Positions 21,597 to 29,769 of a stretch of 47,488 nt of DNA are shown piece after piece. Made by a program: the position numbers and the translations under genes. The notes below the pieces were generated by a model. That model saw only the letters and a list, made by a program, of their open reading frames with translations. It had not been told where the DNA came from and searched no databases. Each line of letters opens with the position of its first letter. The stretch's first letter is position 1. The DNA is from Halothiobacillaceae bacterium (lineage in GTDB: Bacteria > Pseudomonadota > Gammaproteobacteria > Halothiobacillales > Halothiobacillaceae). The stretch is taken from assembly GCA_028696185.1 (NCBI GenBank), contig JAQVHL010000016.1, positions 1 to 47,488 on the forward strand. Reading direction: 5' to 3'.

Positions 21597-22781
21597 CTAG
21601 AATTTTTCCAGATTGAGCATGACCGGGAAGTCGTCATTCCCGGTGCGCTGGAAGGTATAGCGGGTATCGACACACTCGAAGCTGACCCGATCCGGACGCA
21701 AACGCCGCCTCGCCGGAGGCGGTGGCGCCATCTGTTCATGGGCGCGCTGGAAAAGTCCACGCAGCGAGGCGTCGAAACCGTGCGCCAGGGTTTTCAAAAC
21801 CCGTCCATCCAGATCGTCCTCGCCCACCAGGGTCAAATGAACATCCACGCCCAGCGCACGCAAGGTTTCGGCCTGACGGATTTTGTCCCCGGCGGGGGAA
21901 AGCGTGTCGCCCTCGCGGGCGTTCCATGAAAAAACCTGATAGGGAACATCCCGTTGCCGGGCCATGGTGGACAGATGCCCGGCATGACTCAAGTCGCGAA
22001 TGGCCTGCGCGGCCGGGCCGTAATAAAACGGATCCTCGGGCGGCACACACCGTTTCCAGGGTGTCAGACTGTAGCATTTGATGACGGTACGCCGGGTCTC
22101 CAGGCGCGCTTCACACCCCTCCAGCGCCCCCTCTTCCAGCACGTTCCACAGGTATTCCAGCGGAGGCGAGGTGTACGAGCAATTGTCAATCAAGACCCGC
22201 GCAAAACCGGGCGAAATCTTGTTCAGCAAATGCGCAATATAGCCCCCATGACTGCTGCCAATAAGCATGATATTGCTGAAATCGGCATTCAGTCCCTGAC
22301 GTTCCAGGTACTCAGTGACATACACATGATCCAGCGCCTGCATGAGGCCAAAGTTCTGATACTCCTCTTTGCCGGGTACCAGTGCGGCATGCAGCTCAAT
22401 CGTCTCGTCAAGAACCTCGTCCAGCCGCTCCACCAGTTGCCTGAGTGACAGCCTTGCCGAATCGAGCTCTGGAAAATAATCGCGACGTATCCGGTCCAGC
22501 GTTTCATCCGTAAGGGCAAGGGTCGCCCCGGTCTCGGGCCGTGTGTGATAGCAATGGTATTTCACCGCCACGGCGGCATAACCGAAATCACGGGTGAGAT
22601 GGCGCAGCAGCTTTTCCGAATAACCGGGGGGATCGCCACAGCCGCCAATATAGAAAACCACACCCGGATGGGGTGTGGCTGGCTGATAACAGACCTCGAA
22701 TTCCAGAGGGCTGTCCCGAAACCGTTGCAGTTCGAAATCCAGAGCACCCTGGATGGTTCTTCGCTCAAAACACAGACTCAC
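21597..22781 (-). CDS. Alpha/beta-hydrolase-like protein of unknown function (DUF2920-like)
   Basis: About 394 residues, no signal peptide. Visible hydrolase features are VVFYIGGCGDPPGY near residue 50 (oxyanion-hole-like strand turn), a nucleophile-elbow-like GSSHGGYIAHL in the middle, and a late aspartate- and histidine-containing part (LVGEDDLDGR, LAHGF). This fits a Ser-Asp-His hydrolase. The arrangement reminds me of DUF2920 proteins from motile bacteria, but this is from memory and not certain. The start is taken as GTG at 22781 with GGGGAG five bases upstream; GTG at 22802 is the alternative. It follows the 155-residue periplasmic gene on the same strand by 138 bp. The substrate is unknown. 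Confidence 0.75.
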   Translation of the reverse strand: MSLCFERRTIQGALDFELQRFRDSPLEFEVCYQPATPHPGVVFYIGGCGDPPGYSEKLLRHLTRDFGYAAVAVKYHCYHTRPETGATLALTDETLDRIRRDYFPELDSARLSLRQLVERLDEVLDETIELHAALVPGKEEYQNFGLMQALDHVYVTEYLERQGLNADFSNIMLIGSSHGGYIAHLLNKISPGFARVLIDNCSYTSPPLEYLWNVLEEGALEGCEARLETRRTVIKCYSLTPWKRCVPPEDPFYYGPAAQAIRDLSHAGHLSTMARQRDVPYQVFSWNAREGDTLSPAGDKIRQAETLRALGVDVHLTLVGEDDLDGRVLKTLAHGFDASLRGLFQRAHEQMAPPPPARRRLRPDRVSFECVDTRYTFQRTGNDDFPVMLNLEKF

Positions 22782-22919
22782 GCCGTCTCCCCATCCTCTC
22801 ACGCCAAACGCTTGAATCCCTTTCGGGGGAAAGCCCGACTATAGCGACGACAGGCAGGCAAGACAAATCACCCGGCCCGCTTGCGAAGACCGGGGTAGCG
22901 AAAGAGGCGAGGCTTTTCG

Positions 22920-23387
22920 TCAGCGCAAATCCAGAGCCTGGTTCAGCGCCGCCGCTTCGGTCACATAATCGACAGAAGTCACGGCACCGTCCTTGAGGTG
23001 GATCAGCGTGACAGTACCTTTACGACGCGGCATGAAGCTTGTATCCGCTGCCTCATACCCCAGCAGGACGGGATACGGACGCTCGCGCATCTTCGGCAGG
23101 GCGAACATGCTGGTAACAAAGGACGGCATCTCGCTGATGTCGGCGATGAAGACGGCCTGGCGCGTTGCCAGGAAATCCTTGGGCCGCGCCATCAATACCT
23201 CATTGACCATGTCACTGGGGGCCTTTTCCACAGCGAAGATCAGCAACGAGGTATCCGCCGGCACGGTATGCATCTTGTCGTGCTGGTCCTTGAGCTGGAT
23301 CGAGGGCAAGGCCGCCCCCGGCGCCAGAGGTTCGGCGAAGGCGGGAACGGTCAGGGTCAGGAGGCTGGCCAGAAGCAATCGACGCAT
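22920..23387 (-). CDS. Exported thioredoxin-fold-like protein of unknown function
   Basis: 155 residues. A clear signal peptide (MRRLLLASLLTLTVPAFA) is followed by PGAALPSIQLKDQHDKMHT, the usual opening of thioredoxin/peroxiredoxin-like domains. No CxxC or catalytic cysteine remains in the mature part, so it is not a normal thiol oxidoreductase. A periplasmic role is inferred. The ATG at 23387 gives a good signal peptide. A strong hairpin lies nine bases upstream of it. It follows hemL by 93 bp and may be transcribed with it. Confidence 0.8.
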   Translation of the reverse strand: MRRLLLASLLTLTVPAFAEPLAPGAALPSIQLKDQHDKMHTVPADTSLLIFAVEKAPSDMVNEVLMARPKDFLATRQAVFIADISEMPSFVTSMFALPKMRERPYPVLLGYEAADTSFMPRRKGTVTLIHLKDGAVTSVDYVTEAAALNQALDLR

Positions 23388-23395
23388 GGGAATCA

Positions 23396-23427
23396 CCCGG
23401 ACAATGAATCAGTTTTCATTATCCGGG
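23396..23427 (-). promoter_or_regulatory. Near-perfect hairpin just upstream of the exported-protein start
   Basis: CCCGGACAATGAA and TTCATTATCCGGG are 13-bp arms with one mismatch and a 6-nt loop. No U-run follows on either strand, so it is not a standard terminator. Its position, nine bases before the ATG at 23387, suggests an operator or an RNA structure that affects translation or stabilises the 3' end of the hemL transcript. Confidence 0.55.
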
Positions 23428-24761: not shown

Positions 24762-25414
24762 CGGGAAGCGTCCTGTAAAGGGTTTACAAACAACTGATGG
24801 ATTTCATGGGCGGCGCGGGCCACATTCTCACGGGCGAGCACGGCAGAAATCACCGCCAGCATGTCGGCGCCATGGCGGATCAGTGGCGCGCCATTTTCCG
24901 CCGTGATACCGCCAATGGCGCAGATCGGCAGCTGCAGCACCTCACGGGCCCGGCTGAGCAGCGCCACCGGCGCGCGCACCGCCTCGGGCTTGACGCCGGA
25001 AGGGAAAAACGCCCCGAAGGCGACATAATCGGCGCCGCGCGCCTGGGCATCGAGCGCGAGCGATAGCTGATCGTAGCAGGAAACCCCGATGATCGCGGCC
25101 TCGCCCAGACGCACGCGCGCCGTCTCGATGGGCATGTCCTCGCGCCCCAGATGAACACCGTCGGCGCCGCAGGCCTGCGCCAGCGCCACGTCGTCATTGA
25201 CGAGAAACAGCGCGCCATGACGCGAACAGAGCTCGCGCAGCGCAAGTGCCTGGGCCCGGCGCCTTGCGGCATCATCGCTCTTGTCACGGTATTGCACGAT
25301 ACGCGCGCCGCCGTTCAGGGCCGCCTCAACGGCGCTGCGCAAATGCTCGTCGGGCGCAAGCCGGGCATCGGTAACCAGATACAGGCCCCGCAAACGCGGA
25401 TCACGCGCTTTCAT
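24758..25414 (-). CDS. thiE: Thiamine-phosphate synthase
   Basis: 218 residues with a TIM-barrel fold. ThiE joins hydroxymethylpyrimidine-PP and thiazole phosphate into thiamine phosphate. Visible blocks: GLYLVTD at the start, [44 protein letters not shown] (where the family often has TxTK) and [12 protein letters not shown]. Overlaps of four bases with both the upstream glk and downstream hemL place it in a tight operon. The start codon at 25414 is consistent with the glk stop. There is no thi-box riboswitch in the overlap, and none was seen elsewhere. Confidence 0.96.
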
Positions 25415-26394
25415 GCGATCTCCAGCGCCTGCCAGGCCGCACCGATCAACGGCGCACGCGGCTCCAGCGCCACGCGCACCGGCAGGCTTTCCAGCAAGGC
25501 GCGGAAGCGTCCCTTGTCCAGAAAGCCTTCCAGGAAGGCCCCTTCACGCAGGGCCGGCAGGATTTTTGGCGCAATGCCGCCCCCCACCCATACCCCGCCA
25601 CCGGCCAGACATTTGAGCGCCAGATTGCCCGCCTCGGCGCCGTAGATGCGCGCAAACAGGCGCAGCGCCTCCACGCACAGCGCATCCTCTCCCGCCAGTC
25701 CCAGCTCGGTCACCACGGCATTGGCATCCGGCGCCGCCGCCATGCGCGCGGCCGTTCCGGCAGACTCGGCCGCGTGGCCGCTGTCGCGCAGGAAACGGTA
25801 CAACAGGGAAAATCCGCTGCCGGAAAGAATGCGCTCGTAGCTCACATGTCCGCCCAACTGCGAACGCAGCCAGACCAGCAAGGCATCCTCAAGCGGCGTA
25901 TTGGGCGCAAAATCGCAATGCCCCCCCTCGGTAGGCAGGGCGTGGTAACGCTGTCCATCCCAGTACAGGATGGCCTCGCCCAACCCGGTGCCTGCGGCAA
26001 TCACCGCCGTTGTACCCGATCTTGCCTGAGTCGAAGCCAAAGGGTTGAGTTCCACGTACTGTCCGACCGGCAGACGCAGCATACCCAGCGCGGCCGCCTG
26101 CAAATCATTGAGCAGACGCACGGGCGCACCGCCCAGCCCGCCTGAAAGCGTCGTTTCTTCCAGCACCCAAGGCAGATTGGTGGCGCGGCATACCCCGTCG
26201 CGCACCGGACCGGCCACGCCGAAACACGCCGCCGTCACCGTATCCGTGCCGACGAACGCGTGCATCAGGCTATCGAACTGCGCGTGCGAGGTACTGGCAT
26301 AGCTTTGCTCGCGCACGGTCTCAAGCCCGTTCGCGCCGTGCCGGAACAGGGCCAGCAGGGTTTTGGTACCGCCGATGTCGCCGGCAAGGATCAT
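25411..26394 (-). CDS. glk: Glucokinase
   Basis: 327 residues of the bacterial ROK-independent Glk family. The ATP-binding GDIGGTKT is at 5-12; the block GTGLGEAILYWDG and EGGHCDFAP (sugar binding, with the Glu-Gly-Gly-His motif) follow. The GGGVWVGGGIAPK segment near the end matches the second phosphate loop. It phosphorylates glucose in the cytoplasm. The ATG at 26394 has GGGAG about nine bases upstream; the longer frame has no homology. It lies 87 bp after a phosphorylase-kinase-alpha-like gene, which suggests a joint role in glucan or glycogen use. Confidence 0.95.
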   Translation of the reverse strand: MILAGDIGGTKTLLALFRHGANGLETVREQSYASTSHAQFDSLMHAFVGTDTVTAACFGVAGPVRDGVCRATNLPWVLEETTLSGGLGGAPVRLLNDLQAAALGMLRLPVGQYVELNPLASTQARSGTTAVIAAGTGLGEAILYWDGQRYHALPTEGGHCDFAPNTPLEDALLVWLRSQLGGHVSYERILSGSGFSLLYRFLRDSGHAAESAGTAARMAAAPDANAVVTELGLAGEDALCVEALRLFARIYGAEAGNLALKCLAGGGVWVGGGIAPKILPALREGAFLEGFLDKGRFRALLESLPVRVALEPRAPLIGAAWQALEIA

Positions 26395-26481
26395 GATGCA
26401 ATCTCCCGATTCGGCCCACGAAGCCATGACTGGACTATCCGCGGGATGGGTTTGGCTGTTGGCGATGCAAGGCGAGCACAC

Positions 26482-29400
26482 TCAAGGCTGGGTGGATTCC
26501 CCCGCCAGCTCGATCGCCTGCTGCTCGCCTTTTTCCAGAAGGAAATCCAGGGCCCAGACGATGCTGTTGGCCACCTTGTGCGGCGGCAGGCGGTAGAAAT
26601 CGCTCCAGGCCAGATCGCGCACCTCGTTGTAGCGTTCGCTATCTTCCGGGTGCGCTTCCAGGCGCGCCAGCCGTACCGCATGACCGATGATGACATCGAG
26701 CACCAGCCAGTCGTCGATACGCAGCGTGGGGTTGACCCGCACCACGGCAATCAGGGCTTCCAGCGCCTCGATGCACAGCTGGCGGTACTCGGGCGAGGCG
26801 ATGCGGTTCAGGCGATGATCGACCAGGAGAGCGAAGTTTTTCTCCCCGGCCGTGCTCTGGGCAAGTAATACCCGGCTTTCCAGATAGTTCTTGCGATTGT
26901 ACTTGTCGCCTATGACCACGCCCAGACCATGACGAAGCAGGTTCCATACGCCGCTGTGGAAATCCGCGCTCATCCGACCCAGCGTTCCGCCGACCTGGCG
27001 CCAATGGTACCAGTCACTCACCGGCGCTGACTCCAGCTCCGGCCCGACACGGTCAAGCTCGGCATTGAAGATGACCTTGACCAGACGCCCCGGTTGCGCC
27101 GCCAGATGCAGCGCCTCGGTGTGTTGCAAGCGGGCTTGTGCCGCGCCGTAATGCGCCAGCACCTCGCGCAAACGCTCGTTGATCTCGTGGGGCGCCAGAT
27201 CCAGAAGCCAGTCGAAGGCCTCGCCCGGCGGGCAGCGGCGCTCGCGTGCCAGCTCCGCAACCATCAGCTGCAGCAGGTGCCCGACTCGCAGGGTGATGAT
27301 GCCTCGAAACAGGCCGGAGTCGGCGCGAATCAGCATGCCCAGGTGAATGATGAGCTCCTGGGTGAGGATGCGTTCGCGTTCGTCCTCACCGCAGAACAGA
27401 CGAATGCGTTCCATCACCGCCTCGTTGGGCATGGGCTCGTGCAGGATGGCCCGCCGCGAGTAGGCGCGCCCCACGGCCAGTTGCTTCTGGCGCACCAGGA
27501 TGTCGATGACAGCCGTTTCGAGATTGGCGTCCACCTTGCCCAACAAGTCGGCCGAACGGCGCAGTACAGCCCAGAACTGCCAGTCCGCTGCGAGAAAGAA
27601 CAAACGTTCGGCCACTTCACGTAAACACAGCGAGGGGCCTTCGGGTGCGTCGCGCAATCCCGTATCGAAGCTCAGACCCTGCCGTCGAGCGAGCAGCACC
27701 AGAATCTCCACCTGCTCGTGAAGGTTGCCCGTACTTGCCAGCCACGTCAGAAGCGACTCGTCACTCGCGCTCTCCAGACGCATCAGCTCGTCGATCAACA
27801 GTGGACGGGTGGCGCACACCTCGCCACGCAGGGCAGTGGAATCGGTCGGAATGGCCGTCTCCTGCCCTTCCCGCCCTTCTTTGAAACACACCGGCAGACG
27901 GTCGCTGTTGGCCAGCGGGATCAGTTGCGCCAGTCGTCCGGCGCGTACCGGGACGCCATCGACCTGTCCCTTGAGCAGCTCGTCGCGCAGAAATTCGATG
28001 CACTCGGTGAAACCCGGTTCGCGCAGCATGCCACGGGTAATGACCAGCGTGATTAACGGCTTACCCGGCAGACGCCAGTACCGGTGCACATAGCTGATTT
28101 TCGCTTTCAGCAGTTTGACCAGAAAGGCGCTGTCGTGACCGAGATAGAAATCGCGGGTATTGAGCACCTGCGGCTGGAACACGGTGGGACGGCTACCGAC
28201 CCAGTAGACGCGCGAGGTGGTCAGCGCACGCAGGCGGCGCGGCGGCCGACCGCTGAGCAGCAGCTTGGTGTTTTCCCCCACGCGGGAGAGCGCCTCCGCT
28301 AGCAACGAGGGTTCACGCACGTCGACACCACCTATGGCAGAGAGCGGCTCGGTGACGATGCCGGCCTCTTCCAGACGAGCCTGGACCTGCTCATCCTCGG
28401 CAATCAGTGCCACCATTACGGCCCGCTCGACCCGACGGCCCACACGGCGGCTGCGGCCGAGCGGGTCGATGTCGGCGGTTTCCAGCAAACCGTCCTGAAT
28501 CAGGGCGGCCAGGATAAACAGGCTCTGCGCCCACACCAGCGGCTGGTTCTCGTTGGGCTGACGCGGCTGGCTACCAGGAGCGGCCCGCTCGGCGTCGATG
28601 TACTCCTGCGGGACGTAATACAGCTCGGGCAGGAGACGCAGGCCATCACGCTCGACGAACAGCGGTTCCAGCCGTTCGCGGTATTCGCGCGCCATCGCCT
28701 TGTCGCCGAAAAACAGGCCGTTGAGCAGCAAATAGGTGAAGAACAGCGGCCACTCGGATTCGATGTGCTCGAAGCGCAACAGCTCCTCGGGCTCGTAATG
28801 CAGCTTGTGCGTGTCTTCGATAGCGGTCTGATGGCCATCGCGCAGGAAACGCTTGCAACCGTAGCGGCCGGCGAGCTTGTCGATCACCATGCGCTGGGTC
28901 AGGGCCACCAGTTCGGGATTGCTCACCGCAAACGCCGGAAAACCAACCACCGACAACAGGGCCGCATCCACTTCCTTGGACCCCGATTCACGCGGCAGGA
29001 TGGATTTGAGCGTGATTTCGGTACGCGCGATATCATCCGGCAATACATGGATGACCGAAGCCACCTCGCCCTGCCCACCGTACAGATCGAAGGCCTGAAT
29101 CGACTGCAGGGCGGCCAGCACCATGCCGATGGAGCTGGCGTTGAGTTCGCGCTGCCCGGTGTTGATCTTGTTGCCGCGCTCCCAGATGCCGTAGTCGGGA
29201 ATGCTGTAAGCGCGGCTCAAGTACCAGACCAGGTTCTGGATGAAGCTCACCTCGTCCTGATTGAACACGATGCGCAGGCCGGAGGCGGTCATCTGCGTGA
29301 GCATGAGCAGGAACAAGGACGTGGCATCGAGCTGCAGATGCCCCCACTCGGTGTCGCCAACCACTTCCTGGCCGCTGGCCGTATCGTACTTGGCGTGCAG

Positions 29401-29769
29401 GGCGTCACGCGGATCCTGGGTGCGCTTGAAGCGCTCGACCTTGGGCGCCTGGCGCATCATCGCGAACAGCAGGCCGCGCATGAGCTTGACCACGCTTTGT
29501 TCAAGCTGATAGGTCCGCCCGTGATCGACATCCCGCTTGCGGTACGCCAGCGCCAGCCCCCACACGGCCAGGATGCTGTAGACGTTGTCACGCACCCAGG
29601 CATGGGTGTAATCGCCGTGGCAGGTCACGGCGGTACTGGCAGGCAGCAGGCCCGTGATGGGATGCTGACGGGCGAGGATGATGCGGCTCACTTCCTCGTA
29701 ATGCGTTTCCAGCCGACGCAGACACTGCGCATCATCAAGGGAAAATGCCGGCGATTCAAAAACACTCAT
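26482..29769 (-). CDS. Bacterial homologue of phosphorylase kinase alpha/beta subunit (GH15-related)
   Basis: A 1095-residue soluble protein that resembles the animal phosphorylase kinase regulatory alpha subunit along its length. The N-terminal (alpha/alpha)6 glucoamylase-like domain has AWVRDNVYSILAVWGL at 57-72, HLQLDATSLFLLML from 144, YGIWERGNK at 193-201, and GRYGCKRFLRDG at 301-312. The C-terminal region keeps FHSGVWNLLRHGLGV and LNRIASPEYRQL (PEYRQL at 993-998), which matches the animal alpha/beta C-terminus from memory. The family is known in some bacteria, but its function there is not settled; candidates are an oligoglucan-binding regulator or a hydrolase. The glucoamylase-like Glu in YGIWER (E197) is present. 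No gamma-like protein kinase lies nearby. glk follows directly. Confidence 0.93.
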   Translation of the reverse strand: MSVFESPAFSLDDAQCLRRLETHYEEVSRIILARQHPITGLLPASTAVTCHGDYTHAWVRDNVYSILAVWGLALAYRKRDVDHGRTYQLEQSVVKLMRGLLFAMMRQAPKVERFKRTQDPRDALHAKYDTASGQEVVGDTEWGHLQLDATSLFLLMLTQMTASGLRIVFNQDEVSFIQNLVWYLSRAYSIPDYGIWERGNKINTGQRELNASSIGMVLAALQSIQAFDLYGGQGEVASVIHVLPDDIARTEITLKSILPRESGSKEVDAALLSVVGFPAFAVSNPELVALTQRMVIDKLAGRYGCKRFLRDGHQTAIEDTHKLHYEPEELLRFEHIESEWPLFFTYLLLNGLFFGDKAMAREYRERLEPLFVERDGLRLLPELYYVPQEYIDAERAAPGSQPRQPNENQPLVWAQSLFILAALIQDGLLETADIDPLGRSRRVGRRVERAVMVALIAEDEQVQARLEEAGIVTEPLSAIGGVDVREPSLLAEALSRVGENTKLLLSGRPPRRLRALTTSRVYWVGSRPTVFQPQVLNTRDFYLGHDSAFLVKLLKAKISYVHRYWRLPGKPLITLVITRGMLREPGFTECIEFLRDELLKGQVDGVPVRAGRLAQLIPLANSDRLPVCFKEGREGQETAIPTDSTALRGEVCATRPLLIDELMRLESASDESLLTWLASTGNLHEQVEILVLLARRQGLSFDTGLRDAPEGPSLCLREVAERLFFLAADWQFWAVLRRSADLLGKVDANLETAVIDILVRQKQLAVGRAYSRRAILHEPMPNEAVMERIRLFCGEDERERILTQELIIHLGMLIRADSGLFRGIITLRVGHLLQLMVAELARERRCPPGEAFDWLLDLAPHEINERLREVLAHYGAAQARLQHTEALHLAAQPGRLVKVIFNAELDRVGPELESAPVSDWYHWRQVGGTLGRMSADFHSGVWNLLRHGLGVVIGDKYNRKNYLESRVLLAQSTAGEKNFALLVDHRLNRIASPEYRQLCIEALEALIAVVRVNPTLRIDDWLVLDVIIGHAVRLARLEAHPEDSERYNEVRDLAWSDFYRLPPHKVANSIVWALDFLLEKGEQQAIELAGESTQP

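Follow-up and report, generated by a model that had tools for sequence, protein, structure and literature searches.

We find that the window, a 47,488-nucleotide stretch of DNA from a Halothiobacillaceae bacterium, encodes a full-length relative of the alpha and beta subunits of phosphorylase kinase (PhK), here called phkL, in which the putative active site of a GH15 enzyme is complete, and that a glucokinase gene directly follows. We consider it likely that phkL is a cytoplasmic, inverting GH15 exo-alpha-glucosidase on a PhK-alpha/beta scaffold, with a predicted activity that releases glucose from glycogen or maltodextrin for glucokinase (Glk). We infer its activity, substrate and location from homology, the predicted fold, the active-site residues, the phkL-glk pair and the glycogen genes. 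In short, phkL probably works in turning glycogen into glucose, a catalytic ability that its animal relative no longer has.

The interval 25411-29769 contains two minus-strand genes, phkL (26482..29769), identified by Pfam, phmmer and an AlphaFold2 model, and the glk open reading frame (25411-26481). The phkL frame runs for 1095 aa with no internal stops. Its product matches the GH15 profile PF00723 with 255.6 bits (Pfam cut-off 22) and the KPBB_C profile PF19292 with 297.9 bits (cut-off 27), the latter at residues 842-1084 (26518..27246, minus strand), and this combination over a chain of ~1100 aa places phkL in the PhK alpha/beta-type sequence family. Both domains were matched in 39/39 bacterial members. 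The GH15-like (alpha/alpha)6 domain, D1, covers residues ~13-440 (28450..29733, minus strand); the end at residue 440 is our choice, and GH15 structures align with model residues 12-444.

A first-pass annotation of this DNA had described a full-length PhK-alpha-like protein sharing long blocks with animal PhK alpha, and both descriptions hold. In a phmmer search of the PDB, the only matches of phkL at E <= 1 were human PhK alpha (8jfk_M, E 3.8e-208) and PhK beta (8jfk_B, E 3.3e-172), E-values that are too small for chance, and the blocks AWVRDNVYSILAVWGL, GRYGC-RFLRDG and PEYRQL are all present in the alignment. A profile built from 12 bacterial relatives finds the same two subunits in the PDB with E 4e-297 and 1.8e-254, respectively. 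Over D1-D2, phkL is 47% identical to human PHKA and 39% to human PHKB. The AlphaFold2 model, which was computed with 39 bacterial sequences as input (pLDDT 83.4, pTM 0.81), aligns with PhK alpha (8jfk_A) at Z 49.7 over 779 residues and 2.8 A and with PhK beta at Z 42.0, and GH15 enzymes come next. Human PhK alpha/beta (PDB 8jfk, 8z5r) and phkL therefore have in common the two Pfam domains and, as judged from the predicted model, the full-length fold. Unlike the human subunits, for which the available text of a 2024 structure paper describes a CaaX motif (PMC10978961), phkL ends in ...ELAGESTQP with no CaaX farnesylation motif, and it has no linked kinase. Bacterial proteins of this kind are already grouped with PhK in sequence databases, for example through Pfam KPBB_C matches in Synechococcus elongatus. 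Among titles and abstract openings in the open-licence PMC literature, we found no paper on bacterial or cyanobacterial PhK homologues, and an earlier mention may exist.

The putative active-site residues of D1 align with those of GH15 enzymes. When phkL is aligned by hhalign with eight ordinary bacterial GH15 proteins, D53-Y54, W58, R60-D61, GIWE197 and E382 fall on their GH15 equivalents, and the DYx3WxRD motif is found in 8/8 of the proteins compared. In phkL this motif spans residues 53-61 (29587..29613, minus strand) and places Y54, W58, R60 and D61 in the GH15 -1 subsite. Aspergillus glucoamylase has Y48, R54 and D55, which we take to be catalytic-pocket residues, at the same spacing as Y54, R60 and D61. 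The putative catalytic acid is E197 of the GIWE motif (codon 29179..29181, minus strand), and it lies at the GH15 acid position, in line with the glucoamylase-like pocket proposed around it in the earlier annotation. The putative catalytic base is E382 in LPELY (codon 28624..28626, minus strand), which aligns with the GH15 SEE motif. By alignment, motif and conservation over 108 bacterial rows, phkL thus has both the two catalytic Glu residues and the DYx3WxRD pocket motif of the GH15 family.

These residues are conserved across the bacterial proteins. R60, D61, W196, E197, E382, W413, K306, H313, Q314, N406 and N408 are invariant in 108/108 bacterial rows, which include three duplicate family loci, and H51, G52 and Y54 are kept in 107/108; the remaining row is gapped there, and we take it to be L118, whose reading frame begins at the H51-Y54 region. 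Among 39 sequences, 143 residues are invariant, of which 122 fall in the 440 residues of D1 (28%) and 21 in the remaining 655 (3%), a concentration that would be expected if the pocket itself is under selection.

The predicted model also gives D1 the (alpha/alpha)6-barrel of a GH15 catalytic domain. It aligns with 5z3a at Z 29.4 (rmsd 3.6 over 336 residues), with 1lf6 at Z 25.9 and with 1gah at Z 21.7, and it is weakest at the active-site loops (pLDDT < 50 at 197-200, 301-326 and 328-336). The 1lf6 entry is titled a bacterial glucoamylase and is presumably of the Thermoanaerobacterium type. Fold and catalytic motifs are thus common to phkL and the GH15 glucoamylases and trehalase-like enzymes (Aspergillus 1gah, 1lf6, the 5z3a glycosidase and bacterial proteins of the L145 type), but the likeness is at the profile level only (hhalign 90.6%). 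Unlike phkL, these enzymes are without KPBB_C, and the L145-type proteins carry a long N-terminal part ahead of the GH15 domain.

The human subunits depart from the bacterial proteins in this same pocket. Human PHKA keeps 108/122 of the invariant D1 residues and has lost 14; it is without H51-G52, has Q for Y54, and is changed at K306, H313, Q314, N406 and N408. Human PHKB keeps 86/122, the lost residues including Y54, R60 and E382, with K at the E382 position. According to the available text of PMC10978961, activity of the human PhK complex on maltose, isomaltose and glycogen is undetectable despite the presence of Glu185 and Glu371, acarbose activates PhK (as cited there), and the significance of the glucoamylase-like domains still needs work. 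The Glu pair by itself therefore proves nothing about activity, since PHKA has both residues. Comparison of the sequences suggests the lost Tyr and loop as a plausible reason for the inactivity of PHKA. PhK counts as one of the classic examples of a regulated kinase, and a related protein that is widespread in bacteria and keeps the complete pocket would offer a simple test system for the role of the glucoamylase-like domains; the pocket changes in PHKA and PHKB are a concrete list that could explain the lost activity.

The gene that follows phkL encodes an ATP-glucokinase (PF02685, 319.6 bits) at 25411..26394 on the minus strand, within the frame that extends to 26481. Its likeliest start is the ATG at 26394, 87 bp beyond the phkL stop, which agrees with the same-strand spacing in the first-pass annotation. 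The order hslO-phkL-glk-thiE-hemL is found in 20/20 fetched loci of the window's family (20 of 26 relatives with a match), with gatA-gatB ahead in 19; the contig of the twentieth (L015) begins at hslO. Within the family alone, this pairing could be plain synteny. In the methanotroph order, whose records include Methylococcaceae and Methylobacter, glk directly follows phkL in 8/8 loci among the matches listed in the genome scan, and other neighbours vary. It does so again in 29/30 loci of a separate draw, the exception being L160; these loci were returned from 46 matching genomes, and two genomes (G499, G500) overlap with the eight scan loci. Because the pair is kept in methanotrophs while other neighbours differ, the link is informative, and the absence of glk or glucan linkage in relatives, which was named as contrary evidence in the earlier annotation, is not what we see. 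The gap between the two genes is -4 to +13 bp in 11 measured loci (three of them duplicate family loci), with a 4-bp overlap in four. We infer that glk is most likely the co-transcribed partner of phkL.

The pairing does not extend to all carriers. Among the matches listed, glk is in range at 0/69 cyanobacterial loci, neither it nor glycogen genes are consistently beside the cyanobacterial phkL, and no gene family adjoins phkL there in more than 13/69 loci. It is also absent from the range covered at two G431-type loci and at five diverged loci. Further along the window, a 158-aa protein without a Pfam or NCBIfam match (22920-23396, minus strand) has counterparts beside hemL in 4/20 family loci, and a DUF2920 alpha/beta-hydrolase-like protein (21597-22802, minus strand; 203.6 bits) is found in 0/20.

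We propose that in the D1 barrel E197 would serve as acid and E382 as base, with Y54, R60 and D61 in the -1 pocket, and that this domain would cut single glucose units off the chain ends of glycogen inside the cell, or of maltodextrins that other glycogen enzymes leave behind. Glk, encoded by the next gene, would then phosphorylate the released sugar to glucose 6-phosphate, while the remainder of the phkL chain, with KPBB_C, would probably hold the oligomer or the glucan. The available text of two methanotroph papers (PMC6406325, PMC8062543) describes Glk as recycling free glucose from glycogen, with ~50 times less glycogen in a glk mutant and glucose accumulating in a gdh/glk double mutant, and that text does not mention phkL. 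A GH15 mutant of Sulfolobus has a glycogen phenotype that fits a degrading role, as described in the available part of PMC11046441. phkL is a candidate for the enzyme that supplies glucokinase with free glucose for recycling in methanotrophs, and possibly also in sulfur oxidisers. In methanotrophs the hydrolysis step may be redundant, since carriers there also have a classical GlgP.

The window genome has glycogen genes on contig C54, which encodes GlgA, GlgB, GH57 and GH77 proteins and an NTP-transferase/hexapeptide protein that we read as GlgC. The GlgA, GlgB and GH77 genes occur twice with equal scores and spacing, at L139 (G000:C54) and on G000:C72, and this doubling is probably an assembly duplicate. 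Besides GlgB and a 123-aa open frame, we saw no GlgX-like CBM48 protein in this genome; the frame (L131, G000:C15:100869-101006; CBM48 match of 33 bits) is possibly a small stand-alone glycogen-binding protein. Among the diverged relatives, L041 and L043 adjoin GlgB and a CBM48/alpha-amylase GlgX-like protein, L041 also a GH77 protein, and L044 has the same gene families as these glycogen loci; at L042, where one neighbour was typed, and at L045 there is no glycogen-gene link. The glucan-related task suggested in the first-pass annotation is supported by glk linkage in relatives and by glgB, glgX and GH77 linkage in some diverged ones. The L041 cluster of GlgB, GlgX-like, GH77 and PhK-like genes (L041:5631-17513) adjoins plasmid-type replication (RPA) and ParA genes and may lie on a plasmid or chromid.

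The same annotation had raised the presence of a glycogen phosphorylase. The sole PF00343 protein of the window genome is of the DUF3417 type, on contig C92, and the PF00343 search found no classical GlgP there, so the substrate that a PhK subunit would act upon is lacking. Three complete genomes (G277, G249, G376) have a phkL relative and 0 PF00343 matches. We also considered phkL as a strict replacement of glycogen phosphorylase and rejected this as a rule, because classical GlgP is present in carriers among the methanotrophs and also in G001, G004 and G007.

The nearest solved relatives of phkL are non-catalytic subunits, and D2-D5 and KPBB_C are fully kept, with both Pfam domains matched in every member. 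This would suit a glucan sensor or scaffold whose D1 binds glycogen ends uncut and whose role towards Glk or glycogen enzymes is regulatory, like that of PhK alpha/beta towards the gamma kinase. We think such a role unlikely, because mere binding does not require the joint retention of acid, base, Tyr and Arg in all lineages, and each of the two human subunits, PHKA and PHKB, is missing some of these residues. The first-pass annotation had left the choice between an active hydrolase and a sensor that preceded the eukaryotic regulator; the hydrolase is favoured, since the bacterial sequences have the complete site and PHKA and PHKB only part of it. An active GH15 enzyme might still act mainly on a different substrate, for example on trehalose or isomalto-oligosaccharides, or on limit dextrin, where removal of the alpha-1,6 stubs would amount to debranching. 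Any of these sugars would feed Glk too, a GlgX-like protein was not seen in the window genome beyond the two CBM48 frames already described, and phkL has a weak NCBIfam match to GH15 trehalase. That match, however, is far under its cut-off (28 bits vs 820), and diverged relatives adjoin GlgX-like genes, and we give this alternative a rather low probability.

A phosphorylase-kinase role for phkL is unlikely, given that it lacks a linked kinase and a CaaX end and that its genome has no classical GlgP. The earlier annotation was right that no gamma kinase is nearby: the one PF00069 match in the genome is on another contig than phkL. This missing linkage weighs little, as the PhK subunit genes of eukaryotes are not necessarily linked to one another. 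One could imagine a true regulatory subunit that pairs with a bacterial Ser/Thr kinase encoded elsewhere in the genome to act on a glucan phosphorylase, and the sole PF00069 kinase (L134:7151-8824, i.e., G000:C92:7151-8824) does lie ~11 kb from the sole PF00343 protein on one 22-kb contig. But the kinase carries sensor-like HAMP and sCache domains, a dozen other open reading frames separate it from the phosphorylase, and it is not near phkL; moreover, the phosphorylase belongs to the divergent DUF3417 type, and the three complete genomes above do without any PF00343 match. We judged the case for this kinase as a hidden gamma subunit to be weak, and regard the whole arrangement as highly improbable.

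Relatives of phkL are widespread in bacteria, many of them represented by metagenome-assembled or draft genomes. KPBB_C is found in 27/27 genomes of the window's family and in 0/69 genomes that represent other families in the set of relatives, in 8/398 genomes drawn across the phylum, in 46/121 of the methanotroph order, and above the cut-off in 45/194 cyanobacterial genomes (the phylum around a Calothrix genome). The genome scan used the best 80 of at least 572 confirmed stretches. In a careful tree of 27 D1-D2 sequences, the window protein lies within its family clade (support 100/97) and the methanotrophs form a separate clade (100/100). A quick tree of 63 rows with an Escherichia coli GH15 outgroup gave the same bacterial groups, although the outgroup is too distant for rooting. 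A recent transfer from a eukaryote, the other contrary outcome named in the first-pass annotation, is unsupported, as the window protein groups inside a bacterial family, and given its bacterial spread phkL is no isolated import into the window lineage.

The eukaryotic side of all comparisons and trees consists of human PHKA and PHKB, i.e., one species. Their branches in the 27-sequence tree are long (1.38 and 2.47), and a constraint of the bacteria to one clade was not rejected there (p-AU 0.515, with these two human sequences), so that the tree allows either ancient direction, a bacterial protein preceding the eukaryotic regulator, as the earlier annotation suggested, or the reverse. PHKA is closest to the cyanobacterial proteins (median 53% identity vs 47% for the window protein), which by itself does not show descent. 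Tentatively, it is possible that the enzyme form from which the PhK subunits derive still lives on in the bacterial proteins, and that an intracellular glucoamylase feeding Glk entered early eukaryotes, where it was duplicated and its catalytic activity was lost step by step (the pocket Tyr and loop in PHKA, also the Arg and catalytic base in PHKB); the GH15 domain of PhK would then still be a glucan reader, and activation by acarbose a relic of that site.

Of 38 pattern matches in viral_contigs, none was confirmed as a virus-borne phkL copy, and the plasmid collection gave a single, distant match. In a 4.9-Mb E. coli record filed as a plasmid, at a place that is featureless in the PLSDB table, there is a 550-aa GH15-like open reading frame (L144:2237-3889), perhaps secreted, with 24% identity to D1.
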